Made by a program: the position numbers and the translations under genes. Below are positions 2,219 through 58,300 of a stretch of DNA of 64,000 bases, one piece after another (positions within the stretch are counted from its first letter, which is position 1; every line of letters starts with the position of its first letter). Origin of the DNA: Nakamurella multipartita DSM 44233 (GTDB lineage Bacteria; Actinomycetota; Actinomycetes; Mycobacteriales; Nakamurellaceae). The DNA lies in contig NC_013235.1 of assembly GCF_000024365.1 (NCBI RefSeq), positions 1,178,001 to 1,242,000 of the forward strand, written 5' to 3'. Below the pieces are notes generated by a model that saw only the letters and a program-made list of their open reading frames with translations, did not search any database and was not told the DNA's origin.

Positions 2219-6145
<3,927 letters not shown>

Positions 6146-6310: not shown

Positions 6311-6316
6311 TAGCCT
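6311..6316 (+). promoter_or_regulatory. Candidate -10 element for leaderless transcript of the 6323 gene
   Basis: TAGCCT is followed by 6 bases and then the GTG start at 6323. TANNNT at this distance is the arrangement of leaderless mRNAs in actinobacteria. No Shine-Dalgarno sequence is apparent. Confidence 0.45.
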
Positions 6317-6322
6317 GGGCGG

Positions 6323-6895: not shown

Positions 6896-7018
6896 CGCAC
6901 CCGGCCTGTCCTCGCCGTCCCGCCCGCGCGGGGCGGCGATAGTGGGCTGCGCGAGCGCGTCCAGGGAGCCCGCGGACGACATCGAGCCAATCCCTTTCGC
7001 CTTTCGAGGAGTTTTGCC

Positions 7019-10148: not shown

Positions 10149-10154
10149 CCCGGT

Positions 10155-40990: not shown

Positions 40991-41524
40991 CTACTTCACC
41001 GGGCCCGCCTCGAAGACCATCTGCAGGCCATCGTCGGGGTGGTAGGTCCAGGTGACGTTGCAGTTGCGCCCCTCGGCGTCTCGGGTCCCGTCGAGCGCGC
41101 GCGTTTGGCCCATGCGGTCGAGAACGGCGGAGCTGAAGCCGAGCTCGTCGAGCATGGCGCGCAGACCCGGCTGGGCCTTGGCCGCGCCGGAATCGAAGAC
41201 CACCACGCTGACTGAATCGGAATCGCCGGTGACGACAGCGGTATCACCCAGGTGGCGTTCGGCAACCTCGATCAGATTTGGCGTCGCGGCCTTGGCGGAT
41301 TCGGTCGCCGCCAGTTGGTTGCTCGTGCTCACCCACAGCGCGGTCACGACCCCCAAGGCGACCGTTAGGACGCCGATCACGGCGAGCAGGATCGGGGTCC
41401 GGGACCGCGCCGACGAACCCGGTGCCATCGCGTCCGGGGCGATGACGGGAACCGGGCCGGTGGGTGCATCAGGGTGGTAGAAGGGGTCGGCGCCGTTGTC
41501 CGGGGGAATGATCGGGGTTGTCAT
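40991..41524 (-). CDS. Single-pass membrane protein, unknown
   Basis: 177 residues. A Pro-rich cytoplasmic N-terminus, a membrane helix (ILLAVIGVLTVALGVVTALWVS, about 45-66), and an extracytoplasmic domain of about 110 residues (TPNLIEVAERHLGDTAVVTGDSDSV to the end) with one cysteine (GRNCNVTWTYH). It starts 4 bases after the gene at 41528 ends, so it is its operon partner. No family is recognised. Confidence 0.7.
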   Translation of the reverse strand: MTTPIIPPDNGADPFYHPDAPTGPVPVIAPDAMAPGSSARSRTPILLAVIGVLTVALGVVTALWVSTSNQLAATESAKAATPNLIEVAERHLGDTAVVTGDSDSVSVVVFDSGAAKAQPGLRAMLDELGFSSAVLDRMGQTRALDGTRDAEGRNCNVTWTYHPDDGLQMVFEAGPVK

Positions 41525-41527
41525 CGA

Positions 41528-42082
41528 TCAACTCACCTGGGTCCAGGGAGCGCATCGCCGGGACTCGAACGCCCGGTCCGACGGGTCGATCGTCACCACG
41601 GTCGCACCGTTGCTGTTCGAGATGATGTCGTTCAGTGAGCCGCTCGTCCCGGACAGCCGTGCCCAGTAGCAGTCCCCGTTCTCCGATCGGTACGTTCCGG
41701 GCTGGACGTCGACGCCCACCAGATTGATCCCGTCCTTGATGGTCGTGGAGGGTCCGGCCGCCGCCTCTGTCACGGTGACGGTCGTCGTGACGCTGACCGG
41801 TGGTGCCGTGATCGTGGTCGGAGCGGCCGTGACGGTCGCGGTCGCGGTGGTGGTGGCGGTCACGGTTCCTGGTGGTGCCATGGACGTAACGGTGGCCGGC
41901 GCCGCGACCGGCTGCCCGGCGCTCCTCGTGGCCGACGCCCGGCCGACAGCAACGGCGGCGACGAGCGCGACGACCATGGCCGCGATCGCCACGATCCTGC
42001 CGCGGCTGGATTTCTTGGTCTGGATGGCCGGCGGTGGTTCCGGGAATCCCGGGTACTGCATTCCCCCTGGGGTGGTACTCAC
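41528..42082 (-). CDS. Membrane-anchored Thr-rich protein with small C-terminal domain
   Basis: 184 residues. A short cytoplasmic region, a helix (IVAIAAMVVALVAAVAVG), a long Thr/Val/Ala spacer (VTATTTATATVTAAPTTITAPP) likely crossing the wall, and a compact C-terminal domain (GVDVQPGTYRSENGDCYWARLSG...ESRRCAPW) with two cysteines. That domain resembles a family often found on actinobacterial lipoproteins. GTG 42082 is chosen for AAGGAG 7 bases before. Confidence 0.7.
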   Translation of the reverse strand: MSTTPGGMQYPGFPEPPPAIQTKKSSRGRIVAIAAMVVALVAAVAVGRASATRSAGQPVAAPATVTSMAPPGTVTATTTATATVTAAPTTITAPPVSVTTTVTVTEAAAGPSTTIKDGINLVGVDVQPGTYRSENGDCYWARLSGTSGSLNDIISNSNGATVVTIDPSDRAFESRRCAPWTQVS

Positions 42083-42233
42083 GATCGCTCCTTCGCGATG
42101 GTCGGGTCGTGATTCAGCAATGGGATGAATGGGATGTCGTTTCGTCACGCAGAATGGCTCGACGAATTCGAATGCACCCGATCGGGTCGTCCGGGAGCCG
42201 ACCCCGCTGCGGCTCCGGGACGCCCGGCCCGGC

Positions 42234-43652
42234 TCAGGCAGCTGCGGATTCGGTGCCAGAGGCTCCCGTCAACGCGGTCATCGCCTGCCCGAGCAGCCGG
42301 TCCAGCCCCAACCGGAGTCCGTCCGCCTCCTTGTCGATCTTGGTCGCGTTGCTCCCGACCAGTCCGGCCAATCGCTTGACCTCGTCGATGCGGCCGAGCA
42401 GATCGATTGCTTCGGTGAGCTTCTCGCGCGCGGTGTCGATCTCCGCGTCTTCCCGCCGCGCATCCGCGGCGACTGCCGCCAGCCGCAACATCTGGACGAC
42501 AGTGCGCAGCATGGCCGGGTCGTCGTACTCGGGGTCGAAGGCCATGACGATTCGGCGGGCGGTGATCGTCTGGATGGTGCGGCCCCCCAGCTGGTCGGGG
42601 CTGCGGACCAGACCCAGCGACGCCAGCGCCGTCCGGTTGCGTTCGGCCTCGTCCAGGTAGCTGTTCCAGGACGTCCGCTTCGAATCGGTCATCTCGATGA
42701 CGACGTTGACGGCACCGCCGTCCACCGCGAGCACCCCGTCACCCTTCTTGCTCCGGGGCACGGCGCCGGGGCGAGTGCCCGTGGCGGCGTATTCGTCGCC
42801 CAGACCGGCGGCGATCCCGTCCATTAACTCGTGGACTCGCTGCTCGAAGGTGCCTCCCTTGAGCGTGGTGAGCCTCGCGGTGGCGGCGGCTGCCTCCGCG
42901 GCGGCGTGGGCCTGCCGGACCGCGGCCGTCAGCTCCTCGACCTTGGCTTCCAGTTCCCGATGGTTCTTGTCCAGAGACTGGCTGAGCTCCTGCTGTTGCC
43001 GGGTGAGCTCGGCATTGTGCTTGGCGATCGGCGAGGTCGGGTCGGCCGGATCGAACTGCCGAGTGACCCGCTCGATCAGGTCGGCGGTCTGCTTGGTGGC
43101 GCGGTCGTCCAAGTCCCGACCGAAGCGGTCCAGGACCGGTCCGAGCCGAGCCAACAGCTCGGGGTTCTCACCACCGAGCAGCCGGCCGACCTCGTCAGCC
43201 AGCGACTTGCGGGCGCCCTCCACGTTGTCCGAGAAACTCCGCCGGGCGGCGATTCCCGCATCGGTGATGGCCTTCCTGGCCTCGGTCGAGGCGCGCTCCA
43301 TCGCTGAGGTGGCGGCCGTGACGGCGTCGGCAGTCGCGGCTGCGGCTTTGCTACTGGCCTCGGCCGTCCGGTCCCCGACCTGCGCGACCAGGGTGTCGAG
43401 GCGGATCTGGTCCTGGACGCCGCCGGCGCCGGCGATCGCATGCACGCCGATGGTGATCGCCTGGGTGACGAACGCGGCGAGATCGGCATCGCCCATGTCG
43501 GCCGGGGTGACGATGGGGCCGCGGTGCCCGGTGGCCCACCGGCGCGACTCGGTGACGACCACCGGTTCGGTGATCGACAGTGACGCGATGACGACTGCGT
43601 CGTGGTGCGTGTCGTAGTGGGCCGAGGCCGGCCCGGTGGCGATGCTGGTCAT
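42234..43652 (-). CDS. Coiled-coil protein with putative PD-(D/E)XK nuclease domain
   Basis: 472 residues. The N-terminal ~70 residues are globular. Residues about 90-290 are Ala/Glu/Arg-rich coiled coil (ASSKAAAATADAVTAATSAM, LTRQQQELSQSLDKNHRELE). A C-terminal domain has GGTFEQRVHELMDGIAAGLGD, KKGDGVLAV and VVIEMTDSKRTSWNSYLDEAERNR, a layout like RmuC/DUF2130-type nucleases with D...(D/E)xK. A final helical region follows. ATG 43652 has GGAGGA upstream. It is divergent from the restriction operon across a palindromic operator, so it is a possible defence or DNA-processing factor. The nuclease call is inference. Confidence 0.6.
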   Translation of the reverse strand: MTSIATGPASAHYDTHHDAVVIASLSITEPVVVTESRRWATGHRGPIVTPADMGDADLAAFVTQAITIGVHAIAGAGGVQDQIRLDTLVAQVGDRTAEASSKAAAATADAVTAATSAMERASTEARKAITDAGIAARRSFSDNVEGARKSLADEVGRLLGGENPELLARLGPVLDRFGRDLDDRATKQTADLIERVTRQFDPADPTSPIAKHNAELTRQQQELSQSLDKNHRELEAKVEELTAAVRQAHAAAEAAAATARLTTLKGGTFEQRVHELMDGIAAGLGDEYAATGTRPGAVPRSKKGDGVLAVDGGAVNVVIEMTDSKRTSWNSYLDEAERNRTALASLGLVRSPDQLGGRTIQTITARRIVMAFDPEYDDPAMLRTVVQMLRLAAVAADARREDAEIDTAREKLTEAIDLLGRIDEVKRLAGLVGSNATKIDKEADGLRLGLDRLLGQAMTALTGASGTESAAA

Positions 43653-43733
43653 GGGTTCCTCCGTGGTCGAGACGAGTGATGGACGACTGGTCACCAGCCT
43701 CAAGTCGCATTCGACCAACGTCATCCCGATAGC

Positions 43734-43753
43734 GTGATAACGGGGGTTATCAC
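43734..43753. promoter_or_regulatory. Perfect palindromic operator in divergent promoter region of restriction island
   Basis: GTGATAAC (43734-43741), GGGG, GTTATCAC (43746-43753): a perfect 8-bp inverted repeat around 4 bases. It lies between the 43652 and 43825 starts, suiting a dimeric repressor of both units. Confidence 0.65.
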
Positions 43754-43824
43754 TTCCGCGATTGACCCGGCGAGCGCGGGACGGTTGACTGGTCGCAGCC
43801 GAGCTCGAAGGGGGATGTTCAACG

Positions 43825-45858
43825 ATGTCTGCGTTGTCGGCAGTGGACCTTCGACTCGGGCTGGCCGACGTCGCCGCACTCGCTCTTGTGCAACGCCCGG
43901 TCGTCTCGGTATGGCGGACCCGTAGCACCGGTACCGACCACCCGTTCCCCGCACCCGTCGAGACCCTGGACGGTCAGGAGTGGTTCGACGGTCGGCAGGT
44001 AGTCGAGTGGCTCGAGGCCACCGGTCGAGGCAACAACCCCGAAGCACGAGCGGATTTGGCCGCGTTTGCCAGCATCGATGGCGGTTCGCCCGCCGGCGAT
44101 CAGGAGGTCTTTTTCGGTCTGACCGCACTGCTGTGCTTGACGGCGATAGTCGGAAGCCCCTTCGGTGAGACGGCCGCCGGGGACATCCTGGACCTGGCTG
44201 ACGAGGCCGACCCGGACAATGATCTGCTGTTCGGTGAGATCGAGGAGCTCGGCGGACGAATCGGCGCCCTGGCCCACTACTGCGACCTGCTGGTCGACGC
44301 GGCCTACCACCCCGCTGCGGCGTTGGAGAAGCTGATCGGCGAGCGATTCCGTCGCCATGTCCCCGCACAGAGCACAGTGGCCTTGACTGGGCCGGCCCAC
44401 GAACTCATCGGGTCCGCCGCGATCGCACTGGCCGACGGCGCCGGGCACGAGTCGCTGACCGTTGTCGACCCGACCCCTGGCGGGAGCGATCTCCTCCTCG
44501 CGGTCGCCGAGCGGGCCGGCGCGCGTGACCTGACGGTGTTCACCGGCCGATCAAACGACGCGGCAGCCCGATTGGCCCGGCGCCGGCTGCGGGTACACGG
44601 CGTTCATCGCGCGGACGGAGCGGGTAGCGACGCTTCCGGCGACCAGCCGGACCAGGCGATCCTGCTCGCCCGATACCCGAGCCCGGGGCAGCCGGACGTG
44701 GCGGCGGCGGAGATGCTCAACGCCGTCACCGATCTGCTTCTCGGCACCACCCCCCAGCAGCGATTCCTGGTCGCAGCACCAGCCGCCGTGCTGACCGATC
44801 GGCTCCGTGATCCCGGGGCGCGAATGGCCAGGGACCGGCTGATTCGCTTCCCGACGCTGCGCGCGGTCGTGCGGCTGCCGGCCGGGCTGGTCGCGGCTAA
44901 ACCGCGCGAGCGACTGGCATTGATGCTGTTCGGGCGTCGGCACGACCCATCACCCGACGAGCCGCAGATGCTCGTCGGTGATCTGAGCAACGCCGCGCTC
45001 AGCAACGCGGTGATCGACGACCTGGTAACCGACCTCGTGGCCAGCACCTCGTCGCCCGCAATCGCACGAACACACCCTTTCCGCTTCCTGCGCCCGGTCA
45101 TGGTGCGCCGGGTCCTGGCCACCGCCGGTTCGATCGTCGAGGTCGTCGGTCCCGGTCAGGCCCGGCCGGTCTCTGGGGCCGACTTGGTGCTGCGCATCAC
45201 GGAGATTGTTGAGGGCATCGCCCGCCCGCTGGCGGCGCCAACCGTGCCGGAGATGGCGGTGGCGAGCCATCTCCAGAACCTCATCCCGATCACCACGCTC
45301 GGTGCGGCCAAGGACCGCGGTGACGTTCGGATCCTGGCCGGGTTGCGGCTGGACACCGGGCTCGGCCCCGGCGGGGTTATCCTCCTGGGCGAGTCGGAAG
45401 TGTGCGGCGCCGCCCGCGTGGGGGATCGGACGGTCGATCGGCTCGCCGTGATTGCCCGCCATCCGGCGGTCCAGTTCACGGAGCCGGGCGACGTGGTCTT
45501 CACGAGCTCCCCGCGGCCGGGTGCGCTGGTCGATACCAACGGCAGCGCGGTCGTGACCTACCCCGCGCGGATTGCCCGCATCGCCCGCCCCGACTCCGGG
45601 CTGGCCGCCCGCCTGCTCGCCGCCGACATCAACGCGCGGCCGGAAGGAGCGAAGGCCTGGCGCGGGTGGCCGCTGCGTCGGCTTCCGTCCGACCAGGCGA
45701 CGGTGCTCGACCAGGCCCTCGCGGAGATCGAGGAGTATCGGGTCGACCTCGAACGGCGCCGGCACGACGCCGAGGATCTCGCCCGGCTGCTGGCCCGCGG
45801 TGCCACCGACGGCGCTGTCACCCTGACCACCACAACCGAACCGACGAAGGGAACTTGA
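43825..45858 (+). CDS. HTH + degenerate N6-methylase + S-subunit-like protein of restriction operon
   Basis: 677 residues. The N-terminus (LADVAALALVQRPVVSVWRTR...WFDGRQVVEWLEATGRG) looks like a MerR/AlpA-type HTH. Residues about 130-420 follow a HsdM-like layout: ALEKLIGERFRRHVPAQSTVALTGPAHELIG, a SAM-loop-like VVDPTPGGSDLLLAVAERAG, RFPTLRAVVRLPAGLVAAKPRERLALMLFG. The catalytic NPP(F/Y) is absent (QAILLARYPSPG at that place), predicting no methylation. The C-terminal ~200 residues (FTEPGDVVFTSSPRPGALVD, ending in a helix) resemble type I specificity-subunit domains. It is the first gene of the operon, ending next to hsdM (TTGA overlap possible). Possibly a regulator or decoy target-recognition factor. 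Confidence 0.6.
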   Translation: MSALSAVDLRLGLADVAALALVQRPVVSVWRTRSTGTDHPFPAPVETLDGQEWFDGRQVVEWLEATGRGNNPEARADLAAFASIDGGSPAGDQEVFFGLTALLCLTAIVGSPFGETAAGDILDLADEADPDNDLLFGEIEELGGRIGALAHYCDLLVDAAYHPAAALEKLIGERFRRHVPAQSTVALTGPAHELIGSAAIALADGAGHESLTVVDPTPGGSDLLLAVAERAGARDLTVFTGRSNDAAARLARRRLRVHGVHRADGAGSDASGDQPDQAILLARYPSPGQPDVAAAEMLNAVTDLLLGTTPQQRFLVAAPAAVLTDRLRDPGARMARDRLIRFPTLRAVVRLPAGLVAAKPRERLALMLFGRRHDPSPDEPQMLVGDLSNAALSNAVIDDLVTDLVASTSSPAIARTHPFRFLRPVMVRRVLATAGSIVEVVGPGQARPVSGADLVLRITEIVEGIARPLAAPTVPEMAVASHLQNLIPITTLGAAKDRGDVRILAGLRLDTGLGPGGVILLGESEVCGAARVGDRTVDRLAVIARHPAVQFTEPGDVVFTSSPRPGALVDTNGSAVVTYPARIARIARPDSGLAARLLAADINARPEGAKAWRGWPLRRLPSDQATVLDQALAEIEEYRVDLERRRHDAEDLARLLARGATDGAVTLTTTTEPTKGT

Positions 45859-45863
45859 CGACC

Positions 45864-47510
45864 ATGCCGCCCCGCGGACGGAAGGCAAGTACGGCGGTCA
45901 CGCCGGCTGTTTCGACACCACCCGCTGCCTCCACGATGAAGGAACTCAAGGACACCCTGTGGAAGGCCGCCGACAAGCTCCGCGGCTCCATGGACGCCTC
46001 GCAGTACAAGGACGTGATCCTTGGCCTGGTCTTTCTTAAGTACGTCTCCGACGCGTTCGACGAGCGGCGGGAGCAGATCCGGGCCGAGCTCGAGGCCGAC
46101 GGGATCGATGAAGACCAGATCGACGGTTTCCTCGATGACGTCGACGAGTACCGCGGCCACGGGGTGTTCTGGGTCAACCGGGACGCCCGCTGGTCGTACC
46201 TGGCTCAGCACGCCAAGGGCATCCCGGCTGTCGGCAACGAGCCGCCTAAGCAGGTCGGACAGCTGATCGATGAGGCCATGGACTACCTGATGGACGCGAA
46301 CCCATCGCTGCGGGCCACGCTGCCGCGGATCTACAACCGCGACAACGTTGATCAGCGCCGCCTCGGTGAACTGCTCGACCTGTTCAACAGCGCCCGGTTC
46401 ACGGGACAAGGCGCAACCAAAGCCCGCGACCTGTTGGGTGAGGTGTACGAGTACTTCCTGGAGAAGTTCGCCAAGGCCGAGGGCAAGCGGGGTGGCGAGT
46501 TCTATACGCCGGCCAGCGTGGTCCGGGTGCTGGTCGAGGTGCTGGAGCCGACCCGGGGCCGGGTGTACGACCCGTGTTGCGGGTCCGGCGGCATGTTCGT
46601 GCAGACCGAGAAGTTCCTGGAGGCCCACCACCGGGAGGGCTCCGAGATCTCCGTCTACGGGCAGGAACTCAACGAGCGCACCTGGCGGATGGCCAAGATG
46701 AACCTGGCCATCCACGGGCTCAGCGGCAACCTCGGACCGCGGTGGGGCGACACTTTCGCCCGTGACATCCACCCCGATGTACAGGCCGACTACGTGCTGG
46801 CGAACCCGCCGTTCAACATCAAGGACTGGGCCCGCAACGATAAGGATCCCCGCTGGAAGTTCGGCGTTCCGCCGGCCGGCAACGCCAACTACGCCTGGAT
46901 CCAGCACATCATCTCCAAGCTTGCCCCCGGCGGCTCCGCCGGCGTGGTGATGGCCAACGGCTCCATGTCCACCCAATCCGGCGGGGAAGGTGCCATCCGC
47001 GCCCAACTGGTCGAGGCCGACCTGGTGTCCTGCATGGTCGCCCTGCCCACCCAGCTATTCCGGTCCACCGGGATTCCGGTCTGCCTGTGGTTCTTCGCCA
47101 AGGACAAGACCGTCGGTACCGGCGGGTCGGTGGACCGGTCCGGGCGGGTGCTGTTCATCGACGCGCGGTCAATGGGGAACATGGTGGATCGGGCCGAGCG
47201 GTCGCTGTCCGACGACGACATCGGTTTGATCGCCGGGACATTCCATGCGTGGCGGGGGACAGCCTCGGCGCGAGCGGCGGGGCTGGAGTACGCCGACAAG
47301 CCCGGGTTCTGTTACTCGGCGACGCTGGCTGAGATCAAGGCCGCCGATTACGCGCTGACGCCGGGGCGGTATGTGGGGGCGGCGGAGGTCGAGGACGACG
47401 GGGAGCCGATCGAGGAGAAGATCGATCGCCTGACGAAGCAGTTGTTCGACCAGTTCGACGAGTCGGAGCGACTGGCCAAGGTCGTTCGCCAACGGCTGGG
47501 ACGGCTGTGA
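45864..47510 (+). CDS. hsdM: Type I restriction-modification DNA methyltransferase subunit
   Basis: 548 residues. The HsdM N-terminal helical domain (MKELKDTLWKAADKLRGSMDASQYKDVILGLVFLKYVSDAF) is followed by the methylase domain with ARDLLGEVYEYFLEKFAKAEGKRGGEFYTP, SAM motif DPCCGSGGMF and catalytic NPPFNIKDW. It methylates adenine in the sequence chosen by HsdS. ATG 45864 is used; TTG 45855, overlapping the upstream stop and closer to GAAGGG, is possible. It overlaps hsdS by GTGA. Confidence 0.93.
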   Translation: MPPRGRKASTAVTPAVSTPPAASTMKELKDTLWKAADKLRGSMDASQYKDVILGLVFLKYVSDAFDERREQIRAELEADGIDEDQIDGFLDDVDEYRGHGVFWVNRDARWSYLAQHAKGIPAVGNEPPKQVGQLIDEAMDYLMDANPSLRATLPRIYNRDNVDQRRLGELLDLFNSARFTGQGATKARDLLGEVYEYFLEKFAKAEGKRGGEFYTPASVVRVLVEVLEPTRGRVYDPCCGSGGMFVQTEKFLEAHHREGSEISVYGQELNERTWRMAKMNLAIHGLSGNLGPRWGDTFARDIHPDVQADYVLANPPFNIKDWARNDKDPRWKFGVPPAGNANYAWIQHIISKLAPGGSAGVVMANGSMSTQSGGEGAIRAQLVEADLVSCMVALPTQLFRSTGIPVCLWFFAKDKTVGTGGSVDRSGRVLFIDARSMGNMVDRAERSLSDDDIGLIAGTFHAWRGTASARAAGLEYADKPGFCYSATLAEIKAADYALTPGRYVGAAEVEDDGEPIEEKIDRLTKQLFDQFDESERLAKVVRQRLGRL

Positions 47511-48709
47511 ACGGAATCGAACCTCGCACTCTGCCCAGTCTGCTCACCTTCATCGTCGATAACCGAGGCCGCTCGTGTCCCACCGAGGCGGAGGGCTTTC
47601 CTTTGATCGCGACAAACTGTGTCAAAGACGATAGTCTTTATCCGGTGTTTGAGAACGTACGGTACGTTTCGCAGGCCACCTACCGCGATTGGTTTCGCAG
47701 TCATCCAGAGCCGGGTGACATCGTCTTCGTATGTAAGGGTTCGCCGGGACGAATCGCGATGGTTCCGGACCCAGTGCCGTTTTGTATCGCGCAAGACATG
47801 GTGGCGTTGCGTGCGAACTCTCGAATCGTGAATCCGCACTATCTATACTATGCCCTCAAGAATCAGGAGGTGCGCGCTCGAATCGAGAATATGCATGTCG
47901 GGACAATGATTCCTCACTTTAAGAAGGGCGATTTCGGAAAGCTGCACCTGGACGTTCATGTCCGATTGTCCGATCAGATGGCGATCGCGGAGGTGCTGGG
48001 CGCGCTCGACGATAAGATCGCCGGCAACTCCAAGATGGCTTCGACTGCTGGCGAATTGGCTACGGAGTGCTTCCGTGATGTATCTATTGATGCAACGTTC
48101 GATGAAACGACTTTTGAGAAGGTGGCCGCTATCGGTGGAGGTGGAACACCTTCCACGAAGGTGCCCGGGTATTGGGACGGGCCCATCGCCTGGGCAACGC
48201 CGACTGACCTGACGGCACTGCCTGGCCCGTACTTGGAGCGCACGGCTCGATCGATCACCCTGTCTGGTCTGGACAACTGCGCGTCGGCACTCTTCCCGCG
48301 GGGCGCCATTCTGATGACCTCGCGCGCTACGATCGGAGCCTTTGCGATTGCGCAACGGCCGGTGGCGGTCAATCAAGGATTCATTGTCGTCGTTCCCGAA
48401 GATCCCCAGATGAAATGGTGGCTTTTCCACACGATGCGTGACCGGGTCGACGAGTTCATCTCGCATGCTAATGGGGCGACCTTCCTGGAGCTGAGTCGGG
48501 GTAGGTTCCGAAGCCTTCCGGTTCGGGTCCCCGCCGGGCGTGTCCTGCGGGCTTTCGATGAGCGAGTGGAGGCAATCCATGCGGTAGCGCGACACGCACT
48601 GGTCGAAAATACGGAGTTGGCCGAACTTCGCGACACTCTCCTCCCGCACCTCATGTCCGGCAGGCTCCGCGTCAAGGACGCCGAAAAGCAGGTGGAGGCG
48701 GTGGTGTAG
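47507..48709 (+). CDS. hsdS: Type I restriction specificity subunit
   Basis: 400 residues with two target-recognition domains (about 1-160 and 205-350), each followed by a conserved helix. The central one ends VRLSDQMAIAEVLGALDDKIAGNSKMA and the C-terminal one ENTELAELRDTLLPHLMSGRLRV. The second TRD opens with GGGGTPSTKVPGYWDGPIAWATP, typical of HsdS. The first TRD coding region (about 47590-47940) is visibly richer in A/T than its neighbours, as expected for horizontally exchanged TRDs. GTG 47507 overlaps hsdM. Confidence 0.92.
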   Translation: MNGIEPRTLPSLLTFIVDNRGRSCPTEAEGFPLIATNCVKDDSLYPVFENVRYVSQATYRDWFRSHPEPGDIVFVCKGSPGRIAMVPDPVPFCIAQDMVALRANSRIVNPHYLYYALKNQEVRARIENMHVGTMIPHFKKGDFGKLHLDVHVRLSDQMAIAEVLGALDDKIAGNSKMASTAGELATECFRDVSIDATFDETTFEKVAAIGGGGTPSTKVPGYWDGPIAWATPTDLTALPGPYLERTARSITLSGLDNCASALFPRGAILMTSRATIGAFAIAQRPVAVNQGFIVVVPEDPQMKWWLFHTMRDRVDEFISHANGATFLELSRGRFRSLPVRVPAGRVLRAFDERVEAIHAVARHALVENTELAELRDTLLPHLMSGRLRVKDAEKQVEAVV

Positions 48710-49816
48710 GTGTCCGCGAACGACCTCCCAGATCGCACTGGCTTCCCGCCGACCCCGAGCCACGTCGGCCTGCCCGGGTGGTACCCAGAACTGCTGGACT
48801 CGGTCGCCGGTCGGATCACCGCTGGCCGGCAGCGGGCGACCGGGGCGGTCAACCGGGAGCTGGTCCTGAGCTACTGGGCGATCGGCCGGGACATCCTGGA
48901 CCGGCAGGAGCAGGAGGGCTATGGCACCAGGGTCATCGACCGGCTCTCGGCCGACCTCAAAGGGCGGTTCCCGGACGCTAAAGGGTTCTCGCCGCGCAAC
49001 CTGAAGTACATGCGGAAGTTCGCCGAGGCCTGGCCCGACCCGGCAGTTGTGCAAGGGACCCTTGCACAACTGCCGTGGTGGTCCCAGATCGCTCTGATGG
49101 AGAAGCTGCACGACCCTGAGCAGCGGCTTTGGTACGCCGCCGAGGCCATTGAAGCGGGCTGGAGCCGGGACATCCTGGCCCTGCAGATCGACCTCAAGTT
49201 GCACGATCGCAAGGGCCGGGCGATCACCAACTTCGCCGGCACCATGCCGCCCGCCGACTCGGACATGGCCCAGCAGGCGACCAAGGACCCGTACGTGTTC
49301 GACTTCCTCGATCTCACCGAGCGCAGCCGAGAGCGGGAGCTCGAGACCGGGCTGGTAGAGCACGTCGGGAAGTTCCTGCTCGAACTCGGGCAGGGATTTG
49401 CCTTCGTCGGCCGGCAGGTGCGACTTGAGGTGGACGGCGAAGAGTTCTACTGCGACCTGCTCTTCTACCACCTGAAGCTGCGGCGATACGTCGTCATCGA
49501 ACTCAAGGCCGTGAAGTTCGAGCCCGGCTTCCTCGGCCAGTTGGGCATGTACATGGCTGCGGTCGACGACCTGCTCGCCCACCCGACGGACGAGCCGACC
49601 ATCGGGTTGATGCTCTGCAAGGGCAAGAACGATGTGGTCGCCGAGTGGGCGCTGCGCGGCTACTCCTCGCCGATCGGCGTCTCCGACTGGACCACCGCAA
49701 TTTCCACCGCGCTGCCGGACGACCTGGCATCGAGCCTGCCCAGCATCGAGGAGATCGAGGCCGAGCTGTCCGATCCGAGTTCGAGCCAGACGGACAACAG
49801 CGACACCACGGACTGA
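48710..49816 (+). CDS. YhcG-type PDDEXK nuclease domain protein (DUF1016)
   Basis: 368 residues. The N-terminal helical DUF1016 domain (RATGAVNRELVLSYWAIGRDILDRQEQEGYGTRVIDRLSADL, FSPRNLKYMRKFAEAW, LPWWSQIALMEKL) is followed by the nuclease domain (FVGRQVRLEVDGEEFYCDLLFYHLKLRRYVVIELKAVKFEP, with D and ELK) and GLMLCKGKNDVVAEWAL. These proteins are frequent guests in type I restriction operons, of uncertain role. GTG 48710 abuts the hsdS stop. The gene contains a perfect 35-bp palindrome at 49041-49075. Confidence 0.88.
   Translation: MSANDLPDRTGFPPTPSHVGLPGWYPELLDSVAGRITAGRQRATGAVNRELVLSYWAIGRDILDRQEQEGYGTRVIDRLSADLKGRFPDAKGFSPRNLKYMRKFAEAWPDPAVVQGTLAQLPWWSQIALMEKLHDPEQRLWYAAEAIEAGWSRDILALQIDLKLHDRKGRAITNFAGTMPPADSDMAQQATKDPYVFDFLDLTERSRERELETGLVEHVGKFLLELGQGFAFVGRQVRLEVDGEEFYCDLLFYHLKLRRYVVIELKAVKFEPGFLGQLGMYMAAVDDLLAHPTDEPTIGLMLCKGKNDVVAEWALRGYSSPIGVSDWTTAISTALPDDLASSLPSIEEIEAELSDPSSSQTDNSDTTD
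49041..49075. repeat. Perfect 35-bp palindrome inside the YhcG nuclease gene
   Basis: Arms CGGCAGTTGTGCAAGGG (49041-49057) and its exact complement (49059-49075) surround a single A. Coding sense is PAVVQGTLAQLPW, just before the conserved LPW motif. Confidence 0.9.
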
Positions 49817-49835
49817 ACGAATAATTGGGGGCACG

Positions 49836-52800
49836 ATGGGCTTACACGGGGGAATGAGCGAGAGCGAATGGGAACAGCTCGCTCTGGACACCTTGGGCGA
49901 ACTCGGCTGGCAACCAGTGCACGGCAAGGACGTCGCACCGGGCAGTGGAGAGCGGGAGAAGTGGGAGGACCTGCACATCCCGTCCCGCATGCTGGCCGCG
50001 ATGCGAAGGCTGAACCCGGAGGTGCCCGAGCAGTATCTGCAGCAGGCGCTTGCCGAGATCGTCACGCCGACGTCAAATGACGCGATCACCGAGAACTACC
50101 GGCTGCACATGGCGGTCGCCGAGGGATACCGGGGGATCACCTACATCGATCACGATGGCGCCGAACAGAATCCGACGATCCGCCTGGTCAGTCAGGACCC
50201 CGAGGCCAACGACTGGCTCGCCGTCGGCCAGGTCACCATTTTCCAGGGGGAGTTCGAGCGTCGCTTCGACATCGTGCTGTACTGCAACGGAATGCCGGTG
50301 TCCATCGTCGAACTCAAACGGGCCGGCAGCAAGTACGCCGATCTGGCGTCCGCTCACACGCAATTGCAGAACTATCTCGGGCTGTTCCCGATGGCCTTCC
50401 GTTTCTGCGTCTTCACCATCGTCTCCGACGGCATCACCGCGAAGTACGGCACCCCCTTCACCCCGCTGCACCACTTCTCGCCGTGGAACGTCGACGAGCA
50501 CGGCGCCGTCGTCAATCCTGGCGACCGCGACGCGCAGGGCAACGCCGACACCGCCATCGAGGTCGCCCTGCACGGCCTCTACACCCACGACCGCTTCCTT
50601 GACCTGCAACGCAGTTACACCGCGTTCGACGAGGGCGCCGAAGGCTTGAGCAAGCGCATCGCCAAGCCGCATCAGTACGTCGCGGTCAGCAAGGCGCTCG
50701 CCAAGACAATCGACGCGGTCGAGAGCGACGGGAAAGCAGGCGTCGTCTGGCACACCCAGGGCTCCGGAAAGTCCATGGAGATGGAGCTTTACACCAACCT
50801 GGTCATCACCGCGCCGAAGCTGCTCAATCCCACCGTCATCGTCATCACCGATCGCACCGAACTGGACGGCCAGCTGTTTCAGAGCTTCCGGGTCAGCCGC
50901 CTGCTGCCCGAAGAACCCCAGCAGATCCGTCGGCGATTGGAACTCCGCGACGAACTGTCCAACCGGATCAGCGGCGGCATCTACTTCACCACCCTGCAGA
51001 AATTCAGCAAGACCGGCGACGAGAAGCTGTCCGGTTCGGATCACCCCCTGCTGTCCAATCGCCGCAACATCATTGTGATGGTCGACGAGGCGCACCGCAG
51101 CCACTACGACGACCTTGACGGCTACGCCCGGCACCTGCGCGACGCGCTGCCGCACGCCACCCTGATCGCGTTCACCGGCACCCCCATCTCCTTCGACGAC
51201 CGCAACACCCGCGACGTGTTCGGCGACTACGTCGACATCTACGACCTGAGCCGAGCGGTCCAGGACGGCGCCACCGTGCCGGTGTACTTCGAACCTCGGC
51301 TGATCAAGGTCGGCCTGGCCGAGGGCGTCACCCAGGAGCAGCTCAACGAAGCCGCCGACCAGGCCACCGAAGGCCTGGACGACGTCGAGCGGACCAAGAT
51401 CGAACAAGGCGTGGCGGTGATCAACGCGGTCTACGGCGCGCCGGCCCGGCTGCGTGCGCTCGCCGGCGACCTGGTCGACCACTGGGAGCAACGGCGCACC
51501 GCGATGCGACCGTTGATCGGCGCGCACGGCAAGGCGATGATCGTCGGCGGCACCCGGGAGATCTGCGCCCGGCTGTACGAGGAGATCATCGCGCTGCGCC
51601 CGAACTGGCACTCGCCCGACCTGCACCAGGGCGTCATCAAGGTCGTCTACTCGTCGGACTCGTCCGACACGGGACTGATCGCGAAGCACCGACGGCGCGC
51701 GAGTGACAACGCGACGATCAAGCAGCGGCTCCGCGAGGTCGACGATGAGCTCGAATTGGTCATCGTCAAGGACATGATGCTGACCGGTTACGACTCGCCG
51801 CCCCTGCACACCCTGTACCTGGACCGCCCGCTCAAGGGAGCGCTGCTCATGCAGACCCTGGCCCGGGTCAACCGCACATTCAAGGAGAAGGACGCTGGGC
51901 TCCTGGTCGGTTATGCGCCGCTGGCCGACAATCTGCAGCAAGCTCTGTCCGAATACACCCAGCAGGATCAGCAGAACAAACCGCTCGGCCGGGACACCGG
52001 AGAAGCCGTTGTGCTGGTCAAGGAACTGCTGCAGGGCATCGAGACGATGCTGGCCGGCTTCGACTGGCGCAGACTCATCGTTCCTCGCCAGCCCAAGTCC
52101 TACGCCATCGCGGCGACCGCCACGGCGAACTACCTGCGGAGTCCCGAGACCCCAGGCAATCAGGTCGCCGAGGGTGAAGAACCACTGCGGTCGCAGTTCC
52201 GGCAAACGGCCGGGCGGCTGACCCGGGCTTGGGCCTTGGCGGCCGGCGACCCCGGACTGGCGGACCAGAAGTGGGACGTGCAGTTCTACGAAGAGGTTCG
52301 CATCTACATGGGCAAGTTCGACGCCGACGAACGCCAGGCCAACGGCGAGCCGGTCCCCGAGGAGATCGAGCTGCTGCTCTCGTCGCTGATCGCCGAGTCG
52401 ACCGCATCGGGCGAAATCATGGACATTTACCAGGCGGCCGGGATTCCGAAGCCGTCGCTGTCCGACCTGACCCCGGATTTCGCCCGAAAGGCGCAGCAGG
52501 CCCGCAACCCGCACCTGGCCATCGAGGCGCTGCGTAAGCTGGTCGCCGAGGAATCGGGCAAGGTGTCCCGGCATAACCTGGTGCGCCAGCGGGCGTTCGG
52601 CGAACGAATCGCCGAGCTGATGATCCGGTATGCCAACCAGCAGCTGACCTCGGCCGAGGTGATCGCCGAACTGGTCGCCATGGCTCAGGAGATCAAGGCC
52701 GAAGCGGGGCGCGGGCAGCACTTCTCGCCCCCGCTGGACGAGGATCAACTCGCGTTCTATGACGCGGTCGCGCAGAACCCCTCCGCGATCGACGTGCTCG

Positions 52801-53036
52801 GCGAGGGCAAGCTGGCCGACATCGCCCGGGACTTGGTCACGGTCATGCAACGCGACATCCGCACCGACTGGACCGTTCGCGAGGACGTTCGGTCCCGCCT
52901 GCGGTCTTCGATCCGCCGGCTGTTGGCGATTCACAAGTACCCCCCGGATAAGGCCCAGGGGGCCATCGAGTTGGTCATGGAGCAGATGGAGTCGATGGCT
53001 CCGAGGTACTCGGAGCAGCGTCGGGCCGGCTCGTAG
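49836..53036 (+). CDS. hsdR: Type I restriction endonuclease/translocase subunit
   Basis: 1066 residues. The N-terminal nuclease domain has RRFDIVLYCNGMPVSIVELKRAGS (PD-(D/E)XK) near residue 150. The SF2 motor has Walker A TQGSGKSMEM (about 308), VITDRTELDGQLFQSF, DEAHRSHYD, FTGTPIS, MMLTGYDSPPLHTLYLDRPLKG and the motif VI-like LARVNRTFKEKDAGLLVGY. The C-terminal helical domain ends with a DUF3387-like region. Either ATG 49836 or ATG 49854 could be used. It pairs with HsdM and HsdS to cut unmodified DNA after translocation. It is the last gene of the operon. Confidence 0.93.
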   Translation: MGLHGGMSESEWEQLALDTLGELGWQPVHGKDVAPGSGEREKWEDLHIPSRMLAAMRRLNPEVPEQYLQQALAEIVTPTSNDAITENYRLHMAVAEGYRGITYIDHDGAEQNPTIRLVSQDPEANDWLAVGQVTIFQGEFERRFDIVLYCNGMPVSIVELKRAGSKYADLASAHTQLQNYLGLFPMAFRFCVFTIVSDGITAKYGTPFTPLHHFSPWNVDEHGAVVNPGDRDAQGNADTAIEVALHGLYTHDRFLDLQRSYTAFDEGAEGLSKRIAKPHQYVAVSKALAKTIDAVESDGKAGVVWHTQGSGKSMEMELYTNLVITAPKLLNPTVIVITDRTELDGQLFQSFRVSRLLPEEPQQIRRRLELRDELSNRISGGIYFTTLQKFSKTGDEKLSGSDHPLLSNRRNIIVMVDEAHRSHYDDLDGYARHLRDALPHATLIAFTGTPISFDDRNTRDVFGDYVDIYDLSRAVQDGATVPVYFEPRLIKVGLAEGVTQEQLNEAADQATEGLDDVERTKIEQGVAVINAVYGAPARLRALAGDLVDHWEQRRTAMRPLIGAHGKAMIVGGTREICARLYEEIIALRPNWHSPDLHQGVIKVVYSSDSSDTGLIAKHRRRASDNATIKQRLREVDDELELVIVKDMMLTGYDSPPLHTLYLDRPLKGALLMQTLARVNRTFKEKDAGLLVGYAPLADNLQQALSEYTQQDQQNKPLGRDTGEAVVLVKELLQGIETMLAGFDWRRLIVPRQPKSYAIAATATANYLRSPETPGNQVAEGEEPLRSQFRQTAGRLTRAWALAAGDPGLADQKWDVQFYEEVRIYMGKFDADERQANGEPVPEEIELLLSSLIAESTASGEIMDIYQAAGIPKPSLSDLTPDFARKAQQARNPHLAIEALRKLVAEESGKVSRHNLVRQRAFGERIAELMIRYANQQLTSAEVIAELVAMAQEIKAEAGRGQHFSPPLDEDQLAFYDAVAQNPSAIDVLGEGKLADIARDLVTVMQRDIRTDWTVREDVRSRLRSSIRRLLAIHKYPPDKAQGAIELVMEQMESMAPRYSEQRRAGS

Positions 53037-53186
53037 ACGCCGCGGCGCTTTCGCGCCTCGCCTAGGCCGACGGCAGAACGGCAGGCGCCCGATCCGGGGC
53101 GAGCCGAGAAGGAGCGCAGACTTGGTAATCCTGCGGCGACTGCTGGCGACACGCCGCCGCCCGCCGGCACTGGCATCATGGGCCAA

Positions 53187-54224
53187 GTGAGCAGCCGCCC
53201 GCCGTCGCGCCGTCACCTGGAGGCCGTGCCGGATCCCTCGACGCACGCCGGGGCTCGCCGGGGCAAGACCGGGTCGGCGTTGAGCCTGTCCGACCGATGC
53301 GAGCCGGCCCCGCCGGTCCGTCGTCGGGATGGCCGCCCCACGACCGCGCAGCCGGCCGACCCGCTCCGGACGCCGGCCGCGCACGGCGCCCCGGACCCGG
53401 CGTCGGAGGACATCACCGCGGCCGACATCTGTCGACTGCTGGCCGACCTGGGGGCACCCGCCGACCTCACCCAGGCAGTGGCGGAGTTCGGTGACGACCT
53501 GCCGGCGCTGGCGACCTGGTTGCAGGAGATCGGCGCCTTCGGTGCCCCCGGTGACGTGCTCGAACCCATGCTGGCGCAGTGGACCGACCTGCTTGAACCG
53601 GGTGTCGGCGCGCTGGCCGCCGAGATCTGCGCTGGCGAGTTTCTGCACTCCTTCCACGCGGCCGCCGACGGTTCGCCGTGCCAGATCGACGCCATGGACT
53701 TCCTGCTCCGCGAAGTCGCGGCGACCGGTCGGCCGGAGGCCCTGGCGATGTGCCGGTGCCTGGCCCACCTGGGACCGCCGGTGGTCCGGCCGACCGCCCG
53801 CCGTAGCGCGCAGGATCTGCTCGAGGCCGGCCTGGCCGACCAGCCGTGGGTCGCCGACCTGGACCGGGCCGAGTTCGCGGCCGCCTTCGCCTACGTCGAG
53901 GCAGCTCAGGAATCCCTGGTTCTCGAGTTCCGGCGGGCCGACACCGGCCATGCCGTGGTCGTGGTCGTGGACCACCGTCGTGGCGGTGGCGTCCAGGACC
54001 TGTTCGTCGTCGACGACGCCCAGGTGCTGCGTCGCGAGGTCCGTCAGGCGGCCACGACCCGCGGATTCGCGATCACGCCGCTGCCCGCGCCGCAGGCGGC
54101 GGCCCGGTTGCAGGCGGCGCTGGCGGCCCCGAGTTGTGCCACCGAGCCGGACGAGATCGTCGGCGTCGGCGTTCATTTGCCGCTGCTGCAGGACCGGCTG
54201 ACCCGGCTGCCGACGTCGGGCTGA
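53187..54224 (+). CDS. Unknown protein sharing an N-terminal word with the pRiA4b-family protein
   Basis: 345 residues (348 from ATG 53178). It starts SSRPPSRRHLEAVP, similar to SRPAGGHLQAVP of the 38945 gene, then a disordered basic/Pro segment. A helical domain (DICRLLADLGAPADLTQAVAEFG...LEPGVGALAAEICAGEFLHSFHAA) and a beta region (ESLVLEFRRADTGHAVVVVVDHRRGGGVQDLFVVDDAQVL) follow. I do not recognise the family. GTG 53187 is chosen because CATCAT ends 7 bases upstream, as in leaderless starts. It separates hsdR from the ketopantoate-reductase-like gene. Confidence 0.6.
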   Translation: MSSRPPSRRHLEAVPDPSTHAGARRGKTGSALSLSDRCEPAPPVRRRDGRPTTAQPADPLRTPAAHGAPDPASEDITAADICRLLADLGAPADLTQAVAEFGDDLPALATWLQEIGAFGAPGDVLEPMLAQWTDLLEPGVGALAAEICAGEFLHSFHAAADGSPCQIDAMDFLLREVAATGRPEALAMCRCLAHLGPPVVRPTARRSAQDLLEAGLADQPWVADLDRAEFAAAFAYVEAAQESLVLEFRRADTGHAVVVVVDHRRGGGVQDLFVVDDAQVLRREVRQAATTRGFAITPLPAPQAAARLQAALAAPSCATEPDEIVGVGVHLPLLQDRLTRLPTSG

Positions 54225-54264: not shown

Positions 54265-55224
54265 ATGCGCATTCTCGTAGTCGGGGCGGGAGCCGTGGGC
54301 GGTCTGTTCGGCGGTCTGATGGCCCAACACGGCCGGGACGTCACGTTCCTGGTCCGCGCGCCGCGGGCCGCCGCCCTGGCGGCGGACGGCCTGCAGCTGG
54401 TGGGCATCCCGGGGGGCCCGCAAGACCAGGTCCGCGCCGTCCCGGTCGCGGTCGTCACTGCCGATCAGCTGTGCGAGGCGGGCCCGTTCGACATCGTCTT
54501 GCTCGCGGTGAAGGCCTACGACCTGGAATCGGCGATCGAGGCGATCGCTCCCGCGGTGGACGCGGGAGCGGCGGTGCTGCCGCTGCTCAACGGCATGCGC
54601 CATATCGACCGATTGACGGCGCGGTTCGGTGCCGAGAACGTCCTCGGCGGCTTCGCTTTCGTCTCCGCCTACCTGGACGAGCAGGGCCGGATCGGCGCCG
54701 GACCGGTGCCCGCCGCCCTCACCTATGGCGAACTGGACGGGTCGAGCACTGACCGGGTCCGCCGCTTCCACGAGCAGGCCGACGGGTGCGGGTTCCGGGT
54801 CACCCTGTCCACAGCCGTCCGCGACGAGATGTGGGCCAAGTGGGTGTTTCTGGCCGCGTTCGCCGCGCTCACCATCCTCTCCGGCGGCTCGGTCGGGGAG
54901 ACGGCGCGCGCGCCCGGCGGCCCGCGCACCGCGCGGGCCCTGCTGGCCGAAACCGCGTCGGTGGCGCAGGCCGCCGGCCACCGGCCGTCAGCGGAGAAGG
55001 TGGCCGGCGACCTGGCCGTGCTGACCGCGACCGATTCGCAGAACCGGGCCTCCATGGACAAGGACCGGTTGGCCGGACGGCCGGTGGAGAGCTCGGCGAT
55101 CATCGACGACCTGGTCGAGCGGGCCGACGCAGCCGGCCTGGACGTCCCGCTGCTCCGGGCCACCCAGGCGGCGCTGGGCGTCTATGTCACCCGGCTGGCC
55201 GACGCCGCGGCGGCCGCGGGGTGA
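54265..55224 (+). CDS. 2-dehydropantoate 2-reductase family protein
   Basis: 319 residues of the ketopantoate reductase (ApbA/PanE) family. It has the NADP loop MRILVVGAGAVGGLFGGLMA, the catalytic Lys in VLLAVKAYDLESAI, NGMRHIDRL, the second conserved Lys in EMWAKWVFLAA, and the C-terminal ASMDKDRLAGRPVESSAIIDDLVERA with the conserved Glu. It reduces ketopantoate in CoA synthesis or acts on a related 2-oxoacid; paralogs are common, so panE is not asserted. The ribosome site is GAAAGGA. Confidence 0.85.
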   Translation: MRILVVGAGAVGGLFGGLMAQHGRDVTFLVRAPRAAALAADGLQLVGIPGGPQDQVRAVPVAVVTADQLCEAGPFDIVLLAVKAYDLESAIEAIAPAVDAGAAVLPLLNGMRHIDRLTARFGAENVLGGFAFVSAYLDEQGRIGAGPVPAALTYGELDGSSTDRVRRFHEQADGCGFRVTLSTAVRDEMWAKWVFLAAFAALTILSGGSVGETARAPGGPRTARALLAETASVAQAAGHRPSAEKVAGDLAVLTATDSQNRASMDKDRLAGRPVESSAIIDDLVERADAAGLDVPLLRATQAALGVYVTRLADAAAAAG

Positions 55225-55312
55225 GTGCAGCGGTCATCCTGCGGCGGGGGACCGTCGCTGTGTCAGAGGCGGATGGAACGATGAGATCTCAGCCATGGCA
55301 CGAGGGAGACGC

Positions 55313-58300
55313 ATGCCGGACGGACCGACGCCGACGCTGAGCTCGGCGCAGGCGGACAAGCTCGGCCGTCAGCTCGACGCCTGGCGCCGCCAGCTGGTGG
55401 CCCTGGACCGCCGGCAGCGGCAGCTCTACTTCAAGCACACCCGCACCGCATCGTTGGAGCTTGTCGATCCGGGTCCGGACGACCTGGCCATCCTGCTGTC
55501 GGCCCGACCGACCCGGCTGTTCACCCGGGTGCCGGAGCCGAGCCTGCCGTTGGCCGTCGACGCCCCCAGCACACCGACCCCGGCACCGACCGCACCGGCC
55601 ACCCCGGACACCAGCCGCGCGCAGTACGGGCGGCCGGTCGAGCACGGCATCGAGGTCGCCGACAAACGCCCCGCCGAGCTGGAGGGGTCGCTGCGTCGGC
55701 TGGACGTCATCGCCCGCCAGTTGTACGCCGACCGCGGTTTGTGGACGCTCTACACCGGCCTGTTGATGCTGCAGTGGATCGACCCGGACGACAACGCCAC
55801 CGTCACCAGCCCGGTCGTGCTGGTTCCGGTCGAGCTGACCCGAGCGGCCCGCGACCAACCGTTCACCCTGCGGCGCAACGACGAGGACCCGGTGCTCAAC
55901 CCCACGCTGCGGCTCAAGCTCAGTGAGCTGGGGATCGAGCTGCCGGCCTTCGACGCCGACGATCTGGACCTGGCCGGGCTGCGGACGGCCATCACCCAGG
56001 CGATCGGCGATCGGCCCGGCTGGGCGGTGCTGGACCGGTCGGTGCTGACCACCTTCAGCTTCCAGAAGGAGGCGATGTACCGGGATCTCACCGACAACGC
56101 GGCGAGGATCCTGGCCCACGCCCAGGTCCAGTTGCTGGGTCTGGGGCCCGACGCCCCGGCCTCCGGAGAGCTCGCGTTCGACCCGCCCGACCCGGCCAGC
56201 CTGGACCAGCAGTATCCGGCCGAGGAGCTGGCCAGCATCCTGGACGCCGACAGCAGCCAACGAGCGTGCATCGTCTCGGCCCGCGATGGGCGCAGCTTCG
56301 TCATGGACGGCCCGCCGGGCACCGGCAAGAGCCAGACGATCGCCAACATCATCGCCGAGTTGATGGCCGCCGGGAAGACGGTGCTGTTCGTCAGCGAGAA
56401 GGCCGCCGCGCTGGACGTGGTGCGAGACCGGTTGACCCAGGCCCAACTCGGCTCGTTCCTGTTCGAGCTGCACTCGCACGCGGCGACCCGCAAGAACGTC
56501 GTCGACGACCTCTACCGCACGCTGCAGCAGCAGGTGGCCACCAAGGCGCTGTTCACCGACAACGACCGCCGGTTGCTCGTCGCGATGCGCGAGCAGCTCA
56601 CGCAGTACGCCACGGCGATGAACGAGGTCCGAGAACCGCTGGGTCGCTCGGTGTTCGGTGTGCTGGGCGAGCTCAGCGAGCTTCCGCTGGTCGCCCGCTC
56701 ACTGCCCACCGCGGACTTCTGGGCCGCCCTGGACGACACGACACTGCGCCGGATCGCCGACCGGGCCGACACCCTGTCCCGGAACTGGCGCCCGGTGCTC
56801 GACGGGGAGGCGTTCGGCTGGCGAGAGCTGGCGCAGGACAACCACACCGAGTTCACCATCGCCGAGCTGATCGCCGCGGTGACCGATGCCGCGTCCTCCG
56901 CCGATGGCGTCGCCATGATCGGGGCCAGCGTCGACGACGACACCGGGCTGGTGCTGCCGATGAGCCTGCCCGCGCTGCGGGGCCGGGTGCGGCTGCTGCA
57001 ACTGGCCGAACGGCGCCCGCCGGTGGCCGACGCCTGGTTGTTCCTGCCCGACCTGGCCCCGGTGGTCGAGCGGCTCGCCGCCCGAAAGTCGTTGGGTGGA
57101 CAGCTGACCGCCGCGCGAGCCGAACTGGGCGGGATCGTCGGCCCGCGGGCGGCACAGGTGGACGACCCTGCGCTGGAGGTCCTCGCCGGTCTGCGGGAGC
57201 TGATGTGGGCCCCGACGGAGACGACCACCACCGACGTCGCCGGCGGGCTGCTGGACTTCCTGGACTCCGCCCCGGCCCGGCTCGCGGGCATCGATGAGGA
57301 CGCCATCCACCTGGCCGGGCTGCTCGGGCTGCCCGACCGAGGACTCACGCTGGGCCGGGCCCGGGCGTACGCCGAGTTGGCGCTGCTGGCCGAGAACCCG
57401 GCCAAGCCGCAACCCGGCTGGCTGAACCCGGCGATGCAGGCGGCGGTCGGGGAGTCCATGACCGTGCTGGGTCCGCTCACCGATCTGGTCCGCCAGCACG
57501 AACGCAGCATGCGCGAGGTGTTCACCGACGAGGCCCTGGGTCTGGACCTGGCGGCGCTGAACACCCGGTTCCGCGAGTCGCACCACGGATGGGGGCGCTT
57601 CTCCGGTCAGTCCCGGGCCGACCGGCGCACCCTCAAGGCCGTCACCGTCCGCGGCAAGGTCGACAAGCGGGTCATCGAAAGGCTTCCCGACGCGGTGGCC
57701 TGGCAGGCGGCGACCCGCGAGCTCACCACCAAGGAGCAGCAGTTCGCGCCGCCGCTGGGTCGGGCCTACACCCGGTTGGATACCGACTTCGCCCGGGTCG
57801 GCAACGCGTTGGAGACGGCCCGTCGGGCCGTCGGGCTGGCCGGCGCGGCGGTCGACCCGGCCCGGCTGGCCCGCCAGCTGGCCGACGGTGGGACTCCCGA
57901 CCCGGGGCTGACGTTGGTCGCCCGGCGGTTGACCGATCGGGTCGCCGACTGGATCCGGTCCACCACGGCGGCGCTGGATCAGCCGGCGGTGCGGCAGATC
58001 GAGCACCTGTCGTTGGCCGATACCGCCCGCTGGTGCACCGACCGGGCGGCGGACCTGCGCGAACCGCTGGCCGCGGCCGGGCAGGTGGCCGACCTGTGCG
58101 GCCGGCCCATCAGCCTGGCCCAGGCGCGGGCCGCGCTCACTGCCGCCCGCCGCCGGGCCGAATACGAGCGAGCCATCGAGAGCACCCGCGCCCAGGACGA
58201 AGAGCTGCTCGGGCCCGGTTACACCGGGGCCGACACCGAGTGGGCGGCGATGGATGCCGCGATCGAATGGGCCCGTCAGGTGCGCGAGGTCGCCGGTGGG

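Follow-up and report, generated by a model that had tools for sequence, protein, structure and literature searches.

The locus considered here poses the question of what role is played by a protein that resembles a catalytically dead modification enzyme, yet is encoded at the head of a type I restriction-modification (RM) operon already possessing complete HsdM and HsdS subunits. The window, by which is meant the whole stretch of 64,000 nucleotides of Nakamurella multipartita DSM 44233 that was analysed, carries the operon on its forward strand. The first gene, here termed X (43825-45858), encodes a protein of 677 residues and is followed by hsdM (M; 45864-47510), in which the NPPF and DPCCGSG motifs are intact; hsdS (S; 47507-48709); yhcG (48710-49816), an optional operon member with DUF1016_N and PDDEXK domains; and hsdR (R; 49836-53036), for which the start codon is our choice. 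The first-pass annotation had placed X first in such an operon and described it as an HTH-like N-terminus, an HsdM-like core with ARYPSPG in place of NPP(F/Y), and an S-subunit-like C-terminus, a description that is borne out in each part below. It had also offered two roles, regulation of the operon through a palindrome at 43734 and action as an alternative recognition subunit. The first is strongly supported by a conserved footprint in the sequence, and the second is not.

Modelling and alignment resolve X into a helix-turn-helix (HTH), a dead HsdM-like core and a single HsdS-like recognition domain with an attached helix, all encoded on the forward strand. Residues 10-70 (43852-44034) are modelled as a winged HTH, which we take to be MerR/AlpA-like; an HTH_17 match was obtained for 3 of 29 relatives, and X thereby has the N-terminal HTH of the regulatory HTH-methylases. 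A Rossmann methylase-like core occupies residues 206-388 (44440-44988), the fold match spanning residues 77-445, and both the structure model and fold comparison clearly predict a methylase fold. A search of the window X protein against Pfam PF02384 gave no match, while 14 of the 29 members of set A5 matched this family at E values up to 0.01. By alignment, the motif I position is occupied by a degenerate DPTPGGSD (residues 215-222; 44467-44490) and the motif IV (NPPF) position by ARYPSPG (residues 282-288; 44668-44688). The target recognition domain (residues 488-618; 45286-45678) and the long helix that follows it (residues 622-661; 45688-45807), which aligns to the helical region of HsdS, were placed by alignment and model, and a sequence-profile match identifies them as homologous to HsdS. 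Only this one recognition domain is modelled per chain; the two expected of an HsdS find no support. Mean pairwise identities of the X domains across 74 loci range from 0.32 to 0.53, the HTH being the most conserved (0.53 against 0.43).

The core fold of X is shared with HsdM and HsdS of EcoR124I and StySJI and with the M1M2S enzyme PacII, to which the core and recognition domain also give a profile match; X differs from these in lacking motif I and NPPF, in having one recognition domain and in the addition of the N-terminal HTH. A one-chain methylase from Vibrio vulnificus (7eew) aligns by VIA over residues 79-670 of X, with a large rmsd of 33 that stems from domain placement. Unlike X, this protein is described as an intact MTase, and its aligned part begins after the HTH of X. 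VIA alignments mostly cover residues 79-646 of X, and thus hardly probe the HTH fold.

The loss of the catalytic motifs is a property of the family. NPP[FYW] is absent from all 81 X proteins and present in all 75 neighbouring M proteins; the motif I pattern DPxxG[ST]G is likewise found in none of the 81 X proteins, against 74 of the 75 M proteins. Two X proteins (L074 and L087) do have an SPPW, displaced by a few residues to the C-terminal side of where motif IV aligns. No [NDSH]PP[FYW] was listed among 28 order-level X proteins (L101-L127 and L006), a set in which the window locus (as L102) and some other loci recur. The most remote X proteins that adjoin an M of the same clade (L128-L130) possess DPPF and lack motif I. 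Further away lie 18 remote HTH-methylase relatives (L131-L147, these 17 taken from a longer list, and L017), homologous to X and with the same domain order. Nine of these have a motif IV-like [NDSH]PP[FYW] or NLPF, and eight a motif I-like DPxxG[GST]G. M-S-R genes adjoin three of the 18 (L017, L144 and L145), and L145, upstream of a complete M-S-R, retains both DPACGTG and NPPF. Because the motifs fade along this gradient, with NPPF, HPPF or DPPF kept by some of the remote homologues, the core of X appears to have decayed from an active fused methylase. The absence of the motifs predicts that X is a catalytically incompetent methylase. The intact NPPF or NPPY in the remote relatives L145 and L147 documents this loss rather than refuting the proposal of a dead methylase, since none is found within the 81-member X family.

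A genome scan with the window X protein alone as the query found no relative; a scan of public genomes with a five-sequence alignment confirmed 248, of which the best 80 were fetched. By their record titles these 80 span 34 named genera, and where annotation was seen the relatives are termed 'hypothetical protein'. M follows X on its strand in 76 of these best 80 of 248 and is no more than 100 bp away in 75. The other five are L044 (a 3 kb gap), L083 and L085 (contig ends), L098 (a truncated X) and L040. In the last of these, from Mumia quercus, X (6974-9031) has the palindrome and M, S and R are absent within 7 kb. YhcG is found downstream in 14 of the same 80, some of the loci ending early. 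Truncated X copies are seen in L020 (genome G283; about 9511-10419, reverse strand) and L098 (6962-8503), and the G283 copy has, some 3 kb away, a frame resembling a transposase by eye. One record (L095) is titled Sporosarcina beigongshangi, a genus that we take to belong to the Bacillota, which would make it the sole X record titled with such a genus; its palindrome is farther upstream, at -185.

Among 397 genomes of the order, 32 encode a near-full-length HsdM at 60% identity or more, and 30 of these carry X, adjoining M in 28 and separated from it by 2.4-3.1 kb in G747 and G751. The other two (G188 and G586) have S and M, with X and R absent from the fetched stretch. A second M copy in G462 sits at a contig end, so that the preceding DNA is out of view. 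Seven fetched loci with an HsdM at 50-55% identity are without X. In nine further genomes (G134, G414, G422, G566, G578, G621, G637, G660 and G704) HsdM is 64-68% identical from about residue 123-135 onwards, some frames reaching 877 residues, and there is no X match; X is therefore not tied to every close HsdM, and these nine possibly represent a differently built type I clade. Mobile records also contain the gene. Five plasmid records have X, annotated in all of them as a hypothetical protein; four of the five are typed as conjugative, and the order X-M-S-R was read in two. One phage record carries X, unannotated.

The strongest evidence on function comes from the DNA preceding X. The operator candidate, GTGATAACGGGGGTTATCAC, occupies 43734-43753 and has the core GATAA-N6-TTATC at 43736-43751. 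In a count covering the window and 79 fetched loci, within 250 bp upstream of X and 50 bp into it, the exact core was present in 72 of 80 loci and a version with at most one mismatch in 78; the misses are L044, which has a spacer-5 version, and L082. L053 was dropped from the count, its anchor residue being a gap, although the exact site is visible there. Many of the 72 loci are related Micrococcales and do not amount to 72 independent events. The remaining 1,179,880 bp of the fetched loci contain no exact and 11 one-mismatch sites, and spacers of 0-13 other than 6 gave a single match, with a spacer of 5. In the genome to which the window belongs (6,060,298 bases in one contig) the exact site occurs once, with three one-mismatch sites elsewhere compared with two for a reversed control pattern. 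A chance or host-wide occurrence is ruled out by these genome and locus counts. The seven X-less operons with HsdM at 50-55% identity and two X-less loci of the same HsdM clade lack the site even when one mismatch is allowed. Likewise, no site with at most two mismatches was found at the 18 remote homologues, whose HTH recognition helix differs; a search for a palindrome of their own gave a best shared half-site pair in 4 of 18.

Within the order, the 30 genomes with X have 14 exact sites and nine with one mismatch within 300 bp of the gene, and none with up to one mismatch is present over that distance in L111, L112, L116, L119 and L124. At L129 and L130 (G627 and G568) the exact site lies about 0.8 kb further up, before an extra gene (L148, 10005-10661, and L150, about 5864-6727, both on the reverse strand) whose G568 copy has a sub-threshold Abi-like match (E 0.012). 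Because this gene intervenes in G568 and G627, the palindrome appears to mark the head of the operon rather than X itself.

The longer form TGATAA-N6-TTATCA occurs exactly at 31 sites in the 397 genomes, nine directly at X and two heading X operons; the other 20 comprise ten of the form TGATAAT-N4-ATTATCA and ten others. When C or G is required beside both half-sites, a restriction on the inner bases chosen post hoc, 10 of 14 sites are X sites, with no X seen at the other four. The ten TGATAAT-N4-ATTATCA sites are distributed over nine genomes (G466, G491, G536, G548, G580, G678, G690, G702 and G721), seven of them in one genus, and none adjoins X. A second hairpin, with a run of C in its loop, is seen about 150-215 bp upstream of X in nine loci (L021, L024, L026, L029, L030, L045, L051, L084 and L096). 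Rfam gave no match in 41000-54000.

The palindrome is held at a fixed distance from a putative promoter. In the forward direction a -10-like TANNNT lies 40-48 bp away, centre to centre, in 66 of the 72 exact-site loci, and in the reverse direction in 43 of 72, compared with 8, 2, 0 and 1 in forward and 1, 0, 0 and 0 in reverse control windows; two slightly different selection rules for the 72 loci gave the same counts. The exact forward box is absent at this spacing from the window and five other loci. The window has instead a weak candidate, TTGACT (43785-43790, forward strand), one mismatch from TANNNT and 44 bp from the palindrome centre. The frequency of a -35 element between the palindrome and the -10 is near chance in the forward direction (9 of 66, with 7.6 expected from shuffles), and the reverse count was 8 of 43, with 5.7 expected; a parallel count gave 9 and 7. 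As the forward stretch between the two elements carries little information (0.01-0.29 bits per column), the -10 and the palindrome are not kept merely by kinship. An A at +12 from the start of the box, present in 36 of 66 loci, fits a start site and, if taken as such, places the palindrome centre near -53. Before the forward -10, a PafBC-like box with at least six of eight letters was found in 9 of 66 loci against 0.8 expected, and in 2 of 43 against 0.7 in reverse. We take this to be a damage-type box, and its excess may reflect relatedness.

A reverse promoter would serve the genes on the other side of the palindrome. In the window the nearest is D (42234-43652, reverse strand), a divergent coiled-coil protein of 472 residues with a conserved C-terminal domain in which KKGD...E...W..Y..(A)ERNR is invariant. 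Relatives of D divergently adjoin X in 7 of the best 80 of 248 loci (L070, L043, L068, L078, L081, L086 and L089) and are also next to X in seven other genomes of the order among the loci compared. A profile of D gave nine matches in 358 genomes of the order, and all seven clear ones, among them the window's own and a broken copy in G460, lie beside X by their coordinates. The other two (G641 and G720; E 4.7e-5 and 1.4e-4) are short stretches in frames of 743 and 772 residues and were set aside. No D was found in the plasmid records. As a candidate PD-(D/E)XK nuclease, D has a poor AF2 model (pLDDT 64) and a best Foldseek match to MspJI at E 0.03, and searches of Pfam and the PDB gave no support. 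In the eight loci with D, the window included, the reverse box is present in none and the forward box in seven. Next to D lies E (41528-42148, reverse strand), with a match to the Rv1352/Rv1906c domain (NF053833). Of the best 80 of 248 loci, 45, in many genera, encode an E-type protein upstream of X and on the strand opposite to it. These proteins look secreted; all three that were scanned have the Rv1352/Rv1906c domain, and in many of the E-bearing loci the -10 box is mirrored across the palindrome. Downstream of the RM operon, 55184-60916 encodes a protein of 1910 residues matching PADLOC PDC-S37 (E 0) and Hhe (E 2e-164), a candidate for a further defence system.

Taken as a whole, these features are probably best explained if X regulates its own type I RM operon via the palindrome, likely as an activator. 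Autogenous regulation is the best reading of the sequence because of the footprint, its uniqueness and the fixed promoter spacing. From the computed anatomy, motif loss, operon order, footprint and spacing we infer the binding, its sign and an input signal as follows. X would derive from a one-chain modification enzyme (HTH, HsdM and half an HsdS) in which the methylase died. A dimer of X would bind GATAA-N6-TTATC at 43736-43751. The site would thereby lie some 53 bp before the predicted start of a transcript covering X, M, S, YhcG where present, and R, and many relatives would have a divergent promoter at the mirrored distance. X most likely activates its promoter; activation is favoured because the -10 stands at a fixed spacing without a -35 element and the site is near -53. 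The result would be an autogenous positive feedback that delays full restriction until X accumulates. The dead methylase and recognition domains may, purely conjecturally, serve as a dimerization and sensing body for free M or S subunits. In its positive feedback X would resemble the C proteins, which have a timing role in type II systems. The two have in common the autogenous control of RM genes, proposed for X and described for C proteins in the source portions available. The C proteins are small HTH dimers, however, whereas X has 677 residues with methylase and recognition domains.

The sign of the regulation may be the opposite. Activation does not follow from the mere placing of a site some 53 bp before the start, and the tentative alternative is that X is an autorepressor, which binds the palindrome and shuts both the operon promoter and the divergent one, repression being relieved by phage or by loss of X. 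The footprint fits this equally, and the precedents, as far as the available portions of the sources go, point the same way. The HTH-methylase fusions described down-regulate their own gene (PMC3978073, PMC12707154). M.SsoII is an HTH-fused methylase that regulates its own type II system (PMC3978073), and a catalytically inactive mutant of M.EcoRII still represses its own gene if the sites are methylated (PMC12707154). In M.SsoII, M.Ecl18kI and M.EcoRII, as in X, an N-terminal HTH or repressor region is fused to a DNA methylase. The autogenous control exerted through a palindrome at their own promoter region, as the same partial sources describe it, is what is proposed for X, where such a co-conserved palindromic site is indeed found. 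M.SsoII differs in that it is catalytically active, as a C5 methylase, and itself carries out the modification in its system, whereas X has an HsdM-type core devoid of catalytic motifs, an HsdS domain, and a complete M and S adjoining it.

A precedent in a type I setting is provided by RptR of Gammaproteobacteria, which, in the part of the report available, is encoded by the first gene of a type I island, represses that island and binds palindromes in its own promoter (PMC12255303). The position of the gene and the co-conservation of site and gene recall X. RptR is, however, a 9 kDa single-domain protein whose TAGCTA repeats overlap the -10, whereas X is a multidomain protein of 677 residues and not a small single-domain regulator of the RptR or C protein kind. 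Against repression by X stand the position of its site, which is centred near -53 relative to the predicted start and leaves the -10 clear, and the lack of a conserved -35, which is more typical of activator-dependent promoters. In the open-licence PMC literature no HTH/dead-methylase gene of type I operons was found, and RptR was the sole relevant regulator encoded by a type I system; in the portion of another report available, a type I hsdM is placed under the ArsRS two-component system (PMC10810217). The mechanism is known from M.SsoII and RptR; a type I regulator built from a dead M and half an S would be new.

A separate issue is which part of X reads the DNA. In form, GATAA-N6-TTATC resembles the bipartite targets of type I or half-S enzymes, and it could be the recognition domain, not the HTH, that reads the palindrome, a restriction specificity domain having been turned into a transcription factor. 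The symmetric bipartite site with its strict N6 spacing would suit a chain with one recognition domain and one helix, and the recognition domain of X is conserved rather than hypervariable. Set against this, the HTH is the most conserved domain, and homologues with a different HTH helix lack the site, although the remainder of those proteins also differs; reading by the recognition domain is rather unlikely. Slightly more doubtful still is the fuller proposal that a complete modification enzyme was exapted into an activator, with the recognition domain, frozen on this one palindrome, reading the operator and the dead body measuring free M and S. Were it true, X would be a built-in timing or dosage switch for type I systems, shared with the divergent D or E.

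X could instead act as an extra M/S partner of HsdM and HsdS, altering specificity or activity in an M1M2S-like arrangement, as in PacII. This would account for the M fold and S-like domain of X, for the presence of the PacII M1 and M2 chains among its best matches, and for its co-variation with M. Across the 74 loci that have all three of X, M and S, pairwise X identity tracks that of M (r 0.74) and not that of S (r 0.15). Among the 39 pairs whose X proteins share 65% identity or more, mean identities are 0.77 for X, 0.76 for its recognition domain and 0.94 for M, compared with 0.30 for S, which is below 40% identical in 87% of the pairs. S is, by this comparison, exchanged between loci while X is kept. 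A diversifying unit should behave like S, yet the X domain is constant and shows none of the diversification of an HsdS recognition domain, so an alternative specificity subunit, the second role offered by the first-pass annotation, is disfavoured and was set aside as the main function of X. An M/S partnership also leaves the operon-specific palindrome unexplained and sits poorly with the loss of motifs I and IV across the family, which makes it improbable. Finally, it is very hard to believe that X is the decaying remnant of a former fused methylase and has no present role, for although its catalytic motifs are gone and it is truncated in G283 and L098, its domains remain recognizably similar across the 74 loci and 34 genera, it is kept in nearly all the genomes with full-length HsdM, and the palindrome is conserved.

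Regulation by X through the palindrome, then, remains the preferred reading. It would make sense of a nearly fixed fourth gene, resembling a retired modification enzyme turned regulator, in a type I clade that is spread over many actinobacterial genera. Such regulation could explain the establishment of these systems in new hosts, the plasmid records with X being mostly conjugative, and a family of 'hypothetical proteins' would gain a name. If true, X would clearly exemplify the reuse of a dead enzyme for transcriptional control.
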